Below, piece by piece: positions 25,918 to 33,057 of a stretch of DNA of 50,541 nt. Each line of letters begins with the position of its first letter. Position 1 is the stretch's first letter. The stretch is taken from the NCBI GenBank assembly GCA_017411405.1, contig JAFQQE010000010.1, forward strand, positions 93,615 through 144,155, read 5' to 3'. The notes beneath the pieces are model-generated. The model was not told the DNA's origin, did no database searches, and saw only the letters and a list, made by a program, of their open reading frames with translations. The DNA comes from Bacilli bacterium (lineage in GTDB: Bacteria; Bacillota_I; Bacilli_A; RF39; UBA660). Made by a program: the position numbers and the translations under genes.

Positions 25918-26548
25918 CTAACCAATTATACTCAAAAAAATAATTATCTTTTTCTTCTTTTACTTCTTTTTTAAATCTATTATTCTTTACATCTGATACA
26001 GTTTTATATCCTTTTTTATTCCATTCATATATTATTTTATCAATATATCTTAAATTACTAACTCCATTATATGTAGCTTCTTTTAATGCTTCTTTAATTA
26101 ATTCTTCATCCATACCACTATTTATCCATGCATTTATTAGTTCATATTCCATAGGAGATAAAGTTCTACCAAATTCTGATTCGAATAATTCAAAAATATT
26201 TTTTGTTTCTTCTTTTTTTGTATTTTTATTTATATCAGAAGCTGCTAATTTATATATACCATCTAAGGATATTTCTTCTACCATTTTATCATCATCTTTA
26301 ATTATGTTAGTACTTATTAAACCTTTTTTAGTTAAACTACTAAATGATGATAATATTTCTTCATTATTTAAAGTTGTTATTTTATTTATTAATTTTAAAT
26401 CTAATTCTGGATGTTCTTGATTAGTTAGATATATTAAAAGTAATGTTTCGTTTATATCTAATTTGTTTTCTTTTATTATTTTAAATAAAAATGGTCTAAT
26501 AATATAATCTTTATTTTTTATAATATTATAAATTACTTCATTACTCAT
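25907..26548 (-). CDS. dnaD: DnaD-family replication initiation protein
   Basis: 213 aa. The N-terminal winged-helix (about 1-100) is followed by the DnaB/DnaD C-terminal domain (about 120-190) with FELFESEFGRTLSPMEYELI and the conserved YIDKIIYEWNKKGYKT (family YxxxILxxW). In Bacilli, DnaD helps load the replicative helicase at oriC and during restart. It lies in the operon cca-dnaD-nth. Confidence 0.92.
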   Translation of the reverse strand: MSNEVIYNIIKNKDYIIRPFLFKIIKENKLDINETLLLIYLTNQEHPELDLKLINKITTLNNEEILSSFSSLTKKGLISTNIIKDDDKMVEEISLDGIYKLAASDINKNTKKEETKNIFELFESEFGRTLSPMEYELINAWINSGMDEELIKEALKEATYNGVSNLRYIDKIIYEWNKKGYKTVSDVKNNRFKKEVKEEKDNYFFEYNWLDEN

Positions 26549-26557
26549 AAATTATCC

Positions 26558-27631
26558 TCACTTTCTAAGAAATTTAATTATATCTTTATTTTTATTATTT
26601 AATATTCCTTTTAATATATTATCTTCTATTAATTCATAAATTTCATTAATATTATTATAACAATTATTATTTAATTTAACTATACTTTGTGTATTAATTT
26701 TTATATCTTTTCTAGATTTTATAGGTAAAGCATTATACATTTTATTAATAGTTATATTATCTATATCTAATATATTCCCTGCAACTAAGTTAATATATAG
26801 TCCATATTTATATAATGTTTCAATTGTTATACTGCCTTGTTTTATTACTTCTTTTATTTTTTTTATTAAATCTTGTTCATTTTTTGTAAATGGATATTTT
26901 TCGCAAAAATTTATTTGTGAATAAATTCCTATTATATCATTAGTATCTTTCACATTATTAAAATTTATTTCTAAAACTTTTAAGAGATTTAACTTCTTAA
27001 GTAAATTTAATCCTTTTATTCTGTTTTTAGAAATTAATATTTTATCTAATTCTTCTTTTCTTCTAAAATAGGATATTTCTTTTATTATACTTTTATTATT
27101 TTTAATGAAATCTAATATCTCATCATCTATTTTGAAATCATATATAATTGATAGTCTTAAAGCTCTTAATATTCTTAATGGATCTTCACTTAATTTATCA
27201 TGTGTATTAATTATACATTTTATTTTTTTATTGTTGATATCTTCTAAAGCATTATAGTAGTCTAATATTTCTTCATTGCTATTCATTAATAATGTATTAA
27301 TAGTAAAATCTCTTCTTTTTAAATCTTCTTTAATATCTTTTATATAGCTTATACTTTTTGGTCTATGATTAATGTATTCACTTTCTTTTCTAAAAGTCGT
27401 AATATCTATATTATATTTTTTCGTTCTTATATTTACACTGCCATAATTATCTTTTGTAGTTTTATCTAATTTTAAAATATTTATTACATCTTTGGGTAGT
27501 GCATTTGTACATATATCTATGTCATTTGATTCAATACCTAATATGTAATCTCTTACAAATCCACCTACTATATATGCTTTATATCCGTATTTTTCTAATT
27601 TTTTTAATATATTTAAAATTTTTTTATCCAT
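26558..27631 (-). CDS. cca: CCA-adding enzyme / poly(A) polymerase family tRNA nucleotidyltransferase
   Basis: 357 aa. Head motif AYIVGGFVRDYILG with metal ligands D-I-D (NDIDICTNA), then RRDFTINTLLMN, EDPLRILRALRLS and a helical body. It adds or repairs the CCA end of tRNAs. It is shorter than the bacterial average (about 390-420), the C-terminal tail being trimmed. The promoter has an extended -10 TGATATACT (27647-27655). Confidence 0.93.
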   Translation of the reverse strand: MDKKILNILKKLEKYGYKAYIVGGFVRDYILGIESNDIDICTNALPKDVINILKLDKTTKDNYGSVNIRTKKYNIDITTFRKESEYINHRPKSISYIKDIKEDLKRRDFTINTLLMNSNEEILDYYNALEDINNKKIKCIINTHDKLSEDPLRILRALRLSIIYDFKIDDEILDFIKNNKSIIKEISYFRRKEELDKILISKNRIKGLNLLKKLNLLKVLEINFNNVKDTNDIIGIYSQINFCEKYPFTKNEQDLIKKIKEVIKQGSITIETLYKYGLYINLVAGNILDIDNITINKMYNALPIKSRKDIKINTQSIVKLNNNCYNNINEIYELIEDNILKGILNNKNKDIIKFLRK

Positions 27632-27689
27632 AATTACCTCATAGAAAGTATATCATATTAGAATATTTAAATGAATATATATAAATAAA

Positions 27690-27720
27690 ATTTAAAAGAA
27701 AAAGCACAATAATGCTTTTT
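27690..27720 (-). terminator. Intrinsic terminator closing the bacteriocin operon
   Basis: Stem AAAAAGCA/TGCTTTTT (27699-27706 and 27713-27720, loop of 6) with a TCTTTT tail on the minus strand, just past the second peptide stop. Confidence 0.85.
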
Positions 27721-27725
27721 CTAAG

Positions 27726-27893
27726 TTAACATGTTTTTTTATTTTTTCCGTAATTTATTGCACTTCCTATATTTCTTCCTAGTTCTAAGAATATTGTTAA
27801 AACTCTGACAACACTATTCCAAAAACTACCAGATGATATTGTTGTTGCACCTCCAATTACATTAATTAATTCATTATTACTCATTAGTTGCAT
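27726..27893 (-). CDS. Bacteriocin precursor peptide B (double-glycine leader)
   Basis: 55 aa from the ATG at 27893, which has AAGG about 8 nt upstream. An in-frame ATG at 27884 overlaps the stop of peptide A (TAATG) and is an alternative start (52 aa). The leader ends MSNNELINVIGG, fitting the E-L-x-x-hydrophobic-x-GG rule of C39-processed peptides. The predicted mature peptide is 40 aa (27845 down to 27729). It begins ATTISSGSFW, contains a GxxxG motif (GRNIG) in a hydrophobic helix, ends with basic KNKK and has Cys as its last residue. Together with peptide A it fits a two-peptide (class IIb) bacteriocin. No database homologue could be checked. Confidence 0.82.
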   Translation of the reverse strand: MQLMSNNELINVIGGATTISSGSFWNSVVRVLTIFLELGRNIGSAINYGKNKKTC

Positions 27894-28027
27894 TTTAATG
27901 GCCTTAAAAAACCATCAATTAGTCCAATTATGAAACTACCTATTGCTGCAATGATAATACCTATACCTACGCCTTTTCCATTTGCACCTCCATTAATATT
28001 CATAAGTTCTTCAGTTTCTAATACCAT
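27884..28027 (-). CDS. Bacteriocin precursor peptide A (double-glycine leader)
   Basis: 47 aa. The ATG at 28027 is 2 nt past the exporter stop; its GAAAGGAG ribosome site is formed by the last exporter codons, so translation is coupled. The leader MVLETEELMNINGG has the classical double-glycine pattern (L at -12, E -8, L -7, I -4, GG). The predicted mature peptide is 33 aa: a Gly-rich start with overlapping GxxxG motifs (NGKGVGIGIII), a hydrophobic middle, another GxxxG (GLIDG), then FLRPLKCN with a single Cys at the penultimate position. It is most likely one half of a two-peptide, membrane-inserting bacteriocin; a signalling peptide is the alternative. Confidence 0.85.
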   Translation of the reverse strand: MVLETEELMNINGGANGKGVGIGIIIAAIGSFIIGLIDGFLRPLKCN

Positions 28028-28029
28028 AA

Positions 28030-30009
28030 TTACTCCTTTCTAAAAGTTAAAACATTTTTAAATAATAATTTTACGTTTTTATGAGAAATATATATAATTG
28101 TTTTTTCTTTAAAATAAGAAATAATATCTTTTACTATTTTAATTTCTAATTCATAATCTACTTCTTTCAATACTTCATCTAATATAAGTATATTTTTAGA
28201 ATGAATTAAACTTCTTGCTAAAATAATTCTATTTCTTTCTCCTCCACTAATACAAGAATTATTAACAATAATAGCGTTTAATCCCATTTCTTTAATTATA
28301 CTTATATCATTTAATCTAGTAATCTTTATTATATTAGTAAGAATGCTATTATCTATCTTTTTACCTAATAATATATTATTTAATATAGTATCATTAAATA
28401 AATTTTCTTCTTGAGATACATAGGTTATTAAATTATTTACATTATAATCTTTTAAATTATAGTTATCTATATAAATACTACCACTATAATTAGTAATTTC
28501 TTTATTAAGAATTTTCATCAAAGTACTTTTACCTATACCTGAGGGACCATTTATAAATATTTTATCTTTATTTTTTATTAGTATATTTTTATTTGTAAAA
28601 ATACTTTTATTATTTATTTTATAAGATAGATTTTTAATATATATATTATTGAATGTATTATTAACATTATTTATTTTATTTTCATTAAATGATAAAAATT
28701 CATTATTCTTATTTATTATAGATTTATATAATATTATATTTGGATAATAATCTATTATTTTTCTTATATTAAATATATAGAAGTTTAATAATATATAAAT
28801 AATTAAACTATTTATAACATTATTATTTGATTTTACTAATAAATATAATATTATTAATTCAATAACATTAATAATAATATTATTTATTAAATTAACTATA
28901 TATATTTTTTTATTTATAGATTTATATATTTTATTTTTATTTAATACATTATTATTTATATTATTAATAAAATAATCATAAATATTTAAATTCTTTATAC
29001 TTTCAATATTAGTTATATAATCAATAATATTAGAATTATATGTTTCTTCCATATTTATAGAATATCTTATTAAATTAAGTAACTTTTTATATATAATTAA
29101 ATTAAATAGTATATAAAATATAGTTAAAATTATTAGTAAGGGAATAATTTTTATATTATATATTTTTAAAATATATAAATTAAAAATACATATAATTATA
29201 TCAAATAATAAATTGAAAACTATATTAAATAGATTATTACTTAATTCGTTTAATTCATTAAATCTTTCTATTATTTCTCCTTTTTGTTTTAACTTTAAAT
29301 AATATAAAGGGAGATTAAATATATGATTCATAAATTCTTTTATAGTTTTATTATTAAAATTTATATTTAAATTTAATAATGTATTATTTTTTATAAAAGT
29401 TAATAATTCGTTTATAATAATTATAAATATAAATAATATAACCAATTTAATATTACTAACTATTTCTATTTCTAAATTTATTAATATTGTTAGGAGTATA
29501 ATAAAAAAAGAGGTTATAAATAGTAAGATAAATTTAGAAATATTTGATTTAAAATATTTTATTGATTTTTTTAATATGAATTTATTTTCTTTATATTTTA
29601 ATATTTTATTTATAGGATAAAAAGTAATAATAACTCCTGTAAAGCACTTATAAAAATCATCTAATAACATTTTTTTCATTCCTATCGCTGGATCCATTAT
29701 ATAAATGTAATTATTTTTTATTTTATATACTACAACAAAATGATAAAAGTCATTATCTAATTTTAAATGTGCAATTATAGGAAAAGATATATTTTCTAAT
29801 CTTTCAACTTTTTTACCTAAAGCATTAAAACCATATTTTATAGAACAATTAATTATTTCATATGCATTAGTACCGTTATTACTAGTATTGGTTTCTAATC
29901 TTAATATTTCTAAAGGTACATAACCTTTATAATATTTTATAATAGATGCTAGACAACATATTCCACAATCACTACATTCTTCTTGTAAAACTATAAAATT
30001 TTTGAACAT
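28030..30009 (-). CDS. Peptidase-C39 ABC exporter for double-glycine peptides
   Basis: 659 aa, slightly shorter than typical (about 700-720). N-terminal C39 cysteine peptidase: oxyanion Gln Q9, catalytic C15 in SDCGICCLAS, catalytic H90 (HFVVVY) and D106 (MDPAIG). A six-TM domain spans about 155-430. The C-terminal nucleotide-binding domain (about 445-659) has Walker A GPSGIGKST, signature ISGGERNR, Walker B ILILDEVL and the H-loop YISHKN. This family cuts after the GG of leaders and exports the mature peptide. The two peptide genes follow directly. No HlyD-like partner, immunity gene or two-component system is next to it. Codon use is extreme for ATT/AAT/TTA. Confidence 0.93.
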   Translation of the reverse strand: MFKNFIVLQEECSDCGICCLASIIKYYKGYVPLEILRLETNTSNNGTNAYEIINCSIKYGFNALGKKVERLENISFPIIAHLKLDNDFYHFVVVYKIKNNYIYIMDPAIGMKKMLLDDFYKCFTGVIITFYPINKILKYKENKFILKKSIKYFKSNISKFILLFITSFFIILLTILINLEIEIVSNIKLVILFIFIIIINELLTFIKNNTLLNLNINFNNKTIKEFMNHIFNLPLYYLKLKQKGEIIERFNELNELSNNLFNIVFNLLFDIIICIFNLYILKIYNIKIIPLLIILTIFYILFNLIIYKKLLNLIRYSINMEETYNSNIIDYITNIESIKNLNIYDYFINNINNNVLNKNKIYKSINKKIYIVNLINNIIINVIELIILYLLVKSNNNVINSLIIYILLNFYIFNIRKIIDYYPNIILYKSIINKNNEFLSFNENKINNVNNTFNNIYIKNLSYKINNKSIFTNKNILIKNKDKIFINGPSGIGKSTLMKILNKEITNYSGSIYIDNYNLKDYNVNNLITYVSQEENLFNDTILNNILLGKKIDNSILTNIIKITRLNDISIIKEMGLNAIIVNNSCISGGERNRIILARSLIHSKNILILDEVLKEVDYELEIKIVKDIISYFKEKTIIYISHKNVKLLFKNVLTFRKE

Positions 30010-30041
30010 ATTTTTACTCCCTTCATAAATATATATTAAGT

Positions 30042-30075
30042 ATTTTTTTGTATTTCCTTTTTTTATTTGTTAATT
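30042..30075 (-). promoter_or_regulatory. Shared upstream motif, copy 2 (before bacteriocin exporter)
   Basis: Identical over 20 nt to 11340-11359 and similar for 11 more bases after a 3-nt insertion. It lies 33 nt before the exporter ATG, between murB and the exporter. It is the only candidate control region of the bacteriocin operon. Confidence 0.5.
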
Positions 30076-30087
30076 TGTAAAAAAAAA

Positions 30088-30960
30088 TTAATACTTTACA
30101 ATTTCTTGTTCTAGTATTAATTCTATTTTGTAATTTTTATATATTTCTTTTTTTATATGTTCAATTAATAATTTTATATCTTCACTTGATGAATTACCTT
30201 TATTAATAATGAAATTAGCATGCTTATTTGATATATAAGCATCATTAATATGATATCCTTTTAAATTAAGATCATCTATTAGTTTTCCAGCCGATAAATC
30301 TTTTGGATTTCTAAATACGCTACCTGCATTTGGATATTCTAAAGGTTGAGAACTCTTTCTTTTATTCATATTATTTTTTATAATTTCTTTCATTTCTTTT
30401 TTATCTTTATTATATAATTTAAAGCTTGCACTCAATAAAATAATATCTTTATCTTTTTTAAAGATACTATCTCTATAACTAAAATCACAATCTTCTTTAT
30501 TAATTGTTTTTATTTCATTATCTTTTAAATAAGTTATACTTTCAATATAATCACTTATTTCACTTGAATAACAACCTGCATTTTGTACTATAGCTCCCCC
30601 TAAAGTACCTGGAATGCCATATAAATTCTCTAGACCACCTAAATTATTATTTATTAATTTATTAATAAATGTATTTAATAATATACCTGATTCAGCATTA
30701 ACAATATTATTTTCAATTTCTATTTTATTTAATTTTTCTAATAAAATTATAGTTCCATCATAATCTTCATCCGGTAAAATTACATTACTACCTTTACCTA
30801 ATACAATGTATTTTATTTTATTATTTTTCAAATATTCTATTAAGTTTTTTAAACACTTGATATTATAAGGTTTAATTAAATATTTTGAATGTCCACCAAT
30901 TTTATAAGTATTATATTTTTTTAAATTTACATTTTCTAGTAATTCTCCATATTCATGCAT
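30088..30960 (-). CDS. murB: UDP-N-acetylenolpyruvoylglucosamine reductase MurB
   Basis: 290 aa, short type. FAD-binding motifs YKIGGHSKYLIKP, VLGKGSNVILPD, GIPGTLGGAIVQNAGCYSSEI, the catalytic Ser in NAGSVFRNP, and a C-terminal Glu near EIYKNYKIELILEQE. It makes UDP-MurNAc in the cytoplasm. It is upstream of the bacteriocin exporter, with 78 nt between them. The start has an AGGTGAT site. Confidence 0.95.
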   Translation of the reverse strand: MHEYGELLENVNLKKYNTYKIGGHSKYLIKPYNIKCLKNLIEYLKNNKIKYIVLGKGSNVILPDEDYDGTIILLEKLNKIEIENNIVNAESGILLNTFINKLINNNLGGLENLYGIPGTLGGAIVQNAGCYSSEISDYIESITYLKDNEIKTINKEDCDFSYRDSIFKKDKDIILLSASFKLYNKDKKEMKEIIKNNMNKRKSSQPLEYPNAGSVFRNPKDLSAGKLIDDLNLKGYHINDAYISNKHANFIINKGNSSSEDIKLLIEHIKKEIYKNYKIELILEQEIVKY

Positions 30961-31011
30961 ATTATCACCTACTTTAATTTTATAGTAAAAAAATTATTTT
31001 ATCAATTTATA

Positions 31012-31041
31012 TAGATAAAAAATGTAGATTTCTCTACATTT
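31012..31041 (-). terminator. Intrinsic terminator after the 145-aa gene
   Basis: Stem AAATGTAGA/TCTACATTT (31020-31028 and 31033-31041, loop of 4), then TTTTA on the minus strand. Confidence 0.8.
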
Positions 31042-31084
31042 CATAACATTTATCTTTTTTAATTGATATTTAGATAGTCATCTT

Positions 31085-31522
31085 TTATAATTTTTTATTT
31101 ATCAATATATATCCTTCATGAGTAGTAGTACATAATAAACAAACATTATCTTTATCAAAAAAGGCAATATCATCCATTCCAAAATCAGTTATTAGAGAGT
31201 AGTCTCCTCTTTTTAGGGATTCATTATTACTTCCATATTTATAATATTTTGTAAATGTTTCAAATTTTCTTAAATATGTAAATATTTCTTTGGTTGCTAT
31301 TATTTTGTATAGATATCTTGTTCCTTTTGTAATAGTTCCCCACCATTCTGATACTTTTTTTGTTTCTATAATATTATCTTTAAATTTAAAAACCAAGTCA
31401 TTCTTATTTTTATTATTGATAATTACAATTTCTATATACTTAGTCTTATTTTCTAATTTATTCAATATTTTAATATATTCTTCATGAGTATTTAATTTAC
31501 CTGTATAATCTATCATATCCAT
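31085..31522 (-). CDS. Hypothetical protein, 145 aa
   Basis: Not recognised. Soluble, mixed alpha/beta. Aromatic patches VSEWWGTITKGTRYLYKI and TFTKYYKYGSNNESL, and a C-terminal strand pair around DDIAFFDKDNVCLL. No signal or TM segment. It follows the SanA-like gene closely and has its own terminator. The small size and aromatic pattern could fit an immunity or regulator protein, but nothing in the sequence proves this. Confidence 0.6.
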   Translation of the reverse strand: MDMIDYTGKLNTHEEYIKILNKLENKTKYIEIVIINNKNKNDLVFKFKDNIIETKKVSEWWGTITKGTRYLYKIIATKEIFTYLRKFETFTKYYKYGSNNESLKRGDYSLITDFGMDDIAFFDKDNVCLLCTTTHEGYILINKKL

Positions 31523-32217: not shown

Positions 32218-33057
32218 TTACTTACAATATCCTTGTTCATATTTCAAATCTTTATTACCAATATAAACATCTTTATTTCCTTCTATTGTATTGCATAGCA
32301 ATATAGCGTAATTATCTTTTTTATATAGAGTTGTTCCACCATCTTTATAAACTTCATAAACATTTATATCACTTACTAACTCTTTTATACTTTCATCAAT
32401 TGTTTGATAAATATTTAATAAATGATTCTTTAAAGTTAATTTGTTGTTATTTCTTTCTATATAAATTTCCTTTATGCAAGTAGTATAAATTGTTCTATTA
32501 TTAGATTCATAATATTCATTTAATTTTAAATTACAGTTATCTTCTTCTATAACACTTAATTTATAATTTTTTTCTTTTTCATATTTTATATAATTAATAT
32601 TAAATTTATCTAAATCAGTTATCGTTATTGATTTATTTTTTAAAGCATCTTGTATTGTTTCTTCAAAACCATTCTCATATCTTACTATCATATATTCATT
32701 TTTCATGCAATTCCAATAATATGTATATAATTCATCTTCATAAAAGTTTTCTAATGCTTCAGCACATACAAAATCATTAATTTCTTTTGTTTTATCTATT
32801 AATTCTTTTATTTTTAATTCTTCTTTTTTTAAAGAACATGAAAATTTATTGTTTTTTAATTTAATTTGAGGGATTGAATATTCTTGACATTTGTATACAT
32901 TATATAATAATCCTTTATAAACAATATTTACTGAATCATTATTGTCTTTTATTGCAAATATTGGTCTATTAATAGTAAAAATACACATAAGATCAATAAT
33001 AACTAATAATGTTATTATTATAAATATATATAATACTTTTTTTAATATTTTTTTCAT
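32218..33057 (-). CDS. Hypothetical single-TM protein, 279 aa
   Basis: Family not recognised. One N-terminal TM (about 9-30). The extracytoplasmic part has three Cys in the first 85 residues (KCQEYSIP, FSCSL, VCAE) and more later (NCMK, NCNL, TCIK, LCNT, GYCK), suggesting disulfides. A repeated block pattern with FAIKDNN and YKGLLYNVYKCQEYS starts the mature part. It lies between the ABC exporter pair and the SanA-like gene, on the same strand. Confidence 0.65.
   Translation of the reverse strand: MKKILKKVLYIFIIITLLVIIDLMCIFTINRPIFAIKDNNDSVNIVYKGLLYNVYKCQEYSIPQIKLKNNKFSCSLKKEELKIKELIDKTKEINDFVCAEALENFYEDELYTYYWNCMKNEYMIVRYENGFEETIQDALKNKSITITDLDKFNINYIKYEKEKNYKLSVIEEDNCNLKLNEYYESNNRTIYTTCIKEIYIERNNNKLTLKNHLLNIYQTIDESIKELVSDINVYEVYKDGGTTLYKKDNYAILLCNTIEGNKDVYIGNKDLKYEQGYCK

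Follow-up and report, generated by a model that had tools for sequence, protein, structure and literature searches.

A putative class IIb-like two-peptide bacteriocin cassette kept as one unit through most of a family of uncultured Bacilli

We analysed a stretch of 50,541 nucleotides (the window) from contig JAFQQE010000010.1 of a Bacilli genome assembly (GCA_017411405.1). On its minus strand, running from 30009 to 27697, lies a unit of three genes and a terminator-like hairpin: an ABC exporter followed by the precursors of two small peptides, A and B (Table 1). An earlier note, made from the letters of this DNA, had placed the three genes here, with double-glycine leaders, mature parts of 33 and 40 residues and a terminator closing the unit, and each of these features was recovered. 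The terminator-like hairpin is the sole such site within 26500-31500, where shuffled sequences give an expectation of 0.1. The note had also described coupling signals at both junctions. At the first, A starts 2 nt past the exporter stop and is preceded by AAAGGAG, as described. At the second, the TAATG overlap holds only if B uses its second ATG at 27884 (52 aa), while the first ATG (55 aa) yields an overlap of 10 nt.

Table 1 Features of the exporter-A-B unit in the window.
Feature	Position	Strand	Description
C39 peptidase-containing ABC exporter	28030..30009	-	659 aa; Pfam domains and conserved triad
Peptide A precursor	27884..28027	-	47 aa; leader end NINGG; mature part ANGKGVGIGIIIAAIGSFIIGLIDGFLRPLKCN, 33 aa
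Peptide B precursor	27726..27893	-	55 aa; leader end NVIGG; mature part ATTISSGSFWNSVVRVLTIFLELGRNIGSAINYGKNKKTC, 40 aa
Intrinsic-terminator-like hairpin and T tract, end of unit	27697..27722	-	hairpin scan

In the window's genus, the cassette has murB on one side and a tRNA nucleotidyltransferase gene on the other, while in many genera (L029, L037, L062, L063 and others among the relative loci) it is found just upstream of rpsU- and yqeY-like genes. Upstream of murB, the window carries two minus-strand ORFs of 145 aa (31085-31522) and 279 aa (32218-33057), neither of which has a Pfam match.

The exporter contains an N-terminal Peptidase_C39 domain (E=1.3e-32), followed by ABC_membrane and ABC_tran, and thus unites in one chain the features of a PCAT: a C39 domain with Cys-His-Asp, ABC transmembrane domains and an ATPase domain. 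The C39 triad that the earlier note had called intact (C15, H90 and D106) is present and near-invariant among the family exporters, which keep C15 in 85/85, H90 in 86/86 and D106 in 84/86. The ATPase motifs are likewise intact (Walker A GPSGIGKS, signature ISGGE and Walker B ILILDE). Among solved structures, the nearest by sequence is PCAT1 (4ry2; E=1.6e-54) and the next is ComA. Both share the same three domains and the catalytic triad with the window exporter, although the similarity is distant and the substrate pair and the lineage differ. The window exporter scores far under the cut-offs of the NCBIfam exporter models, and PADLOC returned ATPase cross-hits only, with no defence-system assignment. 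From the intact exporter motifs and the homology to PCAT1 and ComA, we infer leader cleavage and export: the C39 domain would recognise both peptide leaders, which are of the LxxxELxxIxGG type, and cut after GG, whereupon the exporter would pump out the mature peptides.

Short ORFs are common at 23% GC (338 of at least 20 aa in the window) and a few relatives (L135 and L136) have a broken exporter, so that A and B might be taken for decayed or chance ORFs behind a general exporter. Profiles built from other genera only, with the window and its genus left out, were run against the 338 window ORFs and matched A at E=1.4e-20 and B at E=1.6e-17, while the next-best ORFs outside the A/B pair reached E of about 1. 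When the exporter, A and B genes were compared across the five genomes of the genus, each was least conserved at its third codon positions, and the synonymous share of changes was higher in A (0.48) than in the exporter (0.25). Random substitution in the peptide ORFs, which the earlier note had named as evidence against them, is not what the codon positions of A and B display. With independent profiles matching both peptides at E<1e-16, a conserved codon-position pattern, and coupling and order kept in 83 loci, the conservation data refute the chance or decayed reading, to which we attach virtually no probability.

Alignments of 83 different A-B pairs revealed the anatomy of the two peptides. 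Mature A is hydrophobic, with the consensus ...F..G..DG..RP..C and a C-terminal end of the form GxxxG-x2-RP-x2-C; its two glycines are conserved in 96% and 100% of pairs and its Cys in 98%. Mature B is cationic and carries LGRxxGSA within the consensus ...LGR..GSAIRR......C, the two glycines being conserved in 99% and 100% and the Cys in 98%. GxxxG is present in 81/83 A and 82/83 B peptides, with conservation of its glycines at 0.96-1.00 in both alignments. The GG that closes the leader is invariant in A and in B. An AF2 model of B alone predicts a helix over residues 17-50 with modest confidence (mean pLDDT 70). Searching solved structures with the peptides gave matches at the level of the leader only.

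Exactly one Cys, near the C-terminus, is found in the mature peptide in 77/83 A and 76/83 B sequences, which for most of them excludes a disulfide inside a single peptide. A disulfide between A and B through the C-terminal Cys is possible, judging from these alignments, although it might fail to form in an anaerobe. The terminal Cys is absent only from the L037 pair and from the second of the L041 pairs, both in one genus, and is missing from A and B alike; this joint loss counts as a single event. In the same genus the pair is duplicated in tandem (two A-B pairs in L041; also L037), and in the pair that lacks the terminal Cys, the Asp of the IDG motif in A is replaced by Cys. Separately, three loci (L033, L042 and L050) carry a further double-glycine mini-peptide next to A and B, the second half of which is unlike both.

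Through most of the window's family, which is probably UBA660 of GTDB order RF39, the three genes stay together and do not change order. We examined 87 relative loci, two of them duplicate sequences of two others; leaving out L036, at a contig end, gave 86. Among these, A was found in 85/86, B in 84/86 and both in 83/86, always in the order exporter-A-B. The gene order is thus conserved in relatives, and the exporter-first arrangement, which had been regarded as unusual, turns out to be the standard one across the family (83/86 loci). Profile A matched 181/193 sampled genomes of the family (about 94%) and profile B 183/193. Outside the family, profile A matched none of 216 genomes in a class-wide sample (E<=1e-5; 28/31 within the family) and none of 238 in a phylum-wide sample (E<=1e-4; 7/7 within the family); the order-level sample consisted of the window's family only.

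Exporter and peptides also come and go together. Of 162 genomes examined for all three, 8 had neither exporter nor A nor B, and 0/150 exporter-positive genomes were without both peptides (Fisher p=5e-11). An exporter without the small ORFs, which would have told against the pair, was therefore found in no genome among the 162. The four genomes that appeared to hold peptides only have the exporter directly upstream, divergent in L133 and L134 and broken or split in L135 and L136. In the latter two, the A and B ORFs are intact beside the fragmented exporter, which may reflect assembly error or early decay.

Exporter orthologues at E<=1e-40 were found in 353/386 genomes and 143/150 genera of the window's family. 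In the exporter tree, the ten genera with at least two members each form one group, with the minimum of nine changes; this grouping by genus apparently fits vertical descent of the cassette. Carriage as horizontal mobile-element cargo was rejected: plasmid and phage matches to the exporter are generic C39 proteins of <60% identity, none covering 80% of the query. A plasmid search with B of a relative (L085) gave a best E of about 10. Bacteriocin loci are usually patchy, strain-specific accessories. Judged from these genomes, the cassette instead behaves like a core trait of the whole lineage and unlike a weapon that varies from strain to strain.

We next compared the locus with class IIb bacteriocin systems. 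Two distinct, adjacent precursor genes with double-glycine leaders are present in the window and in 83/86 loci, and a dedicated C39 ABC exporter stands in the cluster; a double-glycine leader with a C39 exporter is established class II secretion logic (PMC6957408; PMC12648078). Peptide A scores 21.8 bits against TIGR03949, the NCBIfam model of the class IIb lactobin A/cerein 7B family, a borderline result given the cut-off of 21.5 bits, and 33/43 A relatives match this model at E<=0.01. The aligned part spans the leader and runs two thirds of the way through the mature peptide, leaving the IDG..RP..C end outside, and much of A's similarity to the class IIb model may come from the leader. Against NF038034 (lactococcin G-beta/enterocin 1071B family), A reaches 25 bits and stays under the cut-off of 37. 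Window B has no TIGR03949 match and no match to any bacteriocin model at E<=0.01; in this it differs from known class IIb peptides, being recognised by no existing model.

The locus shares with lactococcin G, plantaricins EF/JK and carnobacteriocin XY two adjacent double-glycine genes, mature peptides of about 30-40 aa, GxxxG, helical propensity and a C39 exporter in the unit. In contrast to these systems, the window has the exporter first and no immunity or regulator gene, and its family usually has one near-C-terminal Cys per peptide and a core, not patchy, distribution. Class IIb clusters normally carry immunity and accessory genes (PMC6957408).

On balance, we consider it probable that the cassette is a secreted class IIb-like two-peptide bacteriocin system and a core trait of the lineage. 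The two-peptide, double-glycine, C39 reading that the earlier note had put forward gains support from the conservation of the peptides, of GxxxG and of gene order across dozens of genera. In such a system, mature A and B would become helical in a neighbouring cell's membrane, where the conserved GxxxG faces would bring them together; the paired peptides would permeabilise that membrane, as class IIb bacteriocins do.

Two points weigh most against the bacteriocin reading: the window has no immunity gene, and the cassette is distributed like a core gene. Core distribution and strong conservation are unusual for bacteriocins and would also fit a signal. A and B could then be a lineage-wide secreted communication or kin-recognition pair, pheromone-like in nature. 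They are single-copy and near-universal in the family, most members have no immunity gene, and within the genus the peptides are more conserved than the exporter (mean identity in five genomes of 69% for mature A and 61% for mature B, against 54%). C39 exporters process pheromones too, and ComA is among the nearest solved structures. However, neither a histidine kinase nor a regulator adjoins the window cassette, two co-conserved GxxxG helices are atypical of pheromones, and the nearest curated models are those of class IIb bacteriocins. We consider a signalling role unlikely.

A role at the producer's own envelope or at the host gut surface, in attachment, lysis for DNA release or host modulation, appears more doubtful still, and quite improbable overall. 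It would agree with the core status of the cassette in host-associated genomes and with a window genome that has no obvious self-protection, and the two peptides, each with its C-terminal Cys, could make a stable heterodimer bound to the surface. Yet the sequences hold no sign of anchoring or of a host target, and the families searched give no pointer in this direction.

The bacteriocin reading directs attention to self-protection and secretion accessories, the lack of which had been thought unusual. Both are indeed absent in the window. This absence is a trait of its clade, which has neither of two extra genes that occur in relatives. An ORF scan found an ORF of 90-180 aa between exporter and A in 53/87 loci, a rough count resting on a length and position filter. 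Its product (~140 aa) occupies the usual place of HlyD-type genes, and its predicted structure (mean pLDDT 86) combines a beta domain with one membrane helix. Kinship with HlyD/LcnD was supported neither by profile comparison (hhalign probabilities of 22% and 0.1%) nor by fold comparison (best Foldseek E of 0.06), and an HlyD/LcnD-type accessory secretion protein is absent in the window's clade. At L046 and other loci, the accessory protein is fast-evolving and belongs to no consistent Pfam family.

A third small gene, C, is coupled to the end of B in 22/87 loci (L030, L035, L043, L048, L059, L062, L063, L067, L069, L072, L075, L079, L081, L082, L083, L085, L090-L094 and L097), and, of 117 family genomes searched, about one in four has a C-like gene immediately after B. 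Its product is leaderless, with a positively charged N-terminus and one hydrophobic helix, followed by a copy of B's GRxxGT motif. The B-peptide profile matches C at E down to 3e-6, whereas the best E among 2100 shuffled sequences was 0.17; the B set used included one mis-sorted C (L081), which introduces a small bias. Co-evolution of C with its own B was rejected, as own pairs scored 26.1 and shuffled pairs 27.4 (p=0.89). Own pairs being no better than shuffled ones, the sharing of the motif between C and B is general and not strain-matched. A C profile run over the window genome, which is about 78% complete, found no match.

In Carnobacterium, the gene immediately after those of a two-peptide bacteriocin encodes a 42-aa one-helix protein with a proven immunity function (PMC6957408), which makes C a reasonable candidate for the same task; by this analogy, gene C may confer immunity in some relatives. 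Like CbnZ of carnobacteriocin XY (PMC6957408), C is a small membrane protein with one helix, and its gene directly follows that of the second peptide; unlike CbnZ, it holds a copy of B's GRxxGT motif and is a candidate only. The window, without C, differs from the carnobacteriocin XY cluster with its CbnZ (PMC6957408), and no dedicated immunity gene adjoins the window operon. CAAX/Abi-type immunity was rejected: such proteins are encoded in the genome but on other contigs, unlinked to the cassette.

These observations can be joined in a more specific, tentative reading, in which A and B are a family-defining weapon linked by a C-terminal Cys disulfide, with self-protection, where present, through mimicry by C. 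Membrane-anchored C would show B's GxxxG helix on the outside and occupy A, so that no A-B complex could form in the producer. We hold this full combination to be possible, if rather unlikely. Immunity to two-peptide bacteriocins has been called a mystery (PMC6957408), and if C does protect by mimicking B, it would offer a simple answer.

Two-peptide bacteriocins are well known as a class. The earlier note's description of the locus as undescribed stands in so far as the papers searched held no genomic account of such a system in this lineage, nor one of a family-wide, apparently vertical cassette with a terminal Cys per peptide and a B-like membrane gene. It must be tempered by A, which lies just over the cut-off of a class IIb model. 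Such precursors may also already be listed in a class II bacteriocin survey that spans about 280,000 gut genomes (PMC12648078). With the cassette near-universal, a whole lineage of uncultured, small-genome Bacilli is expected to make these peptides, and 80-odd natural variants reveal which residues matter. Member genomes of the family are mostly 0.8-1.9 Mb in size.
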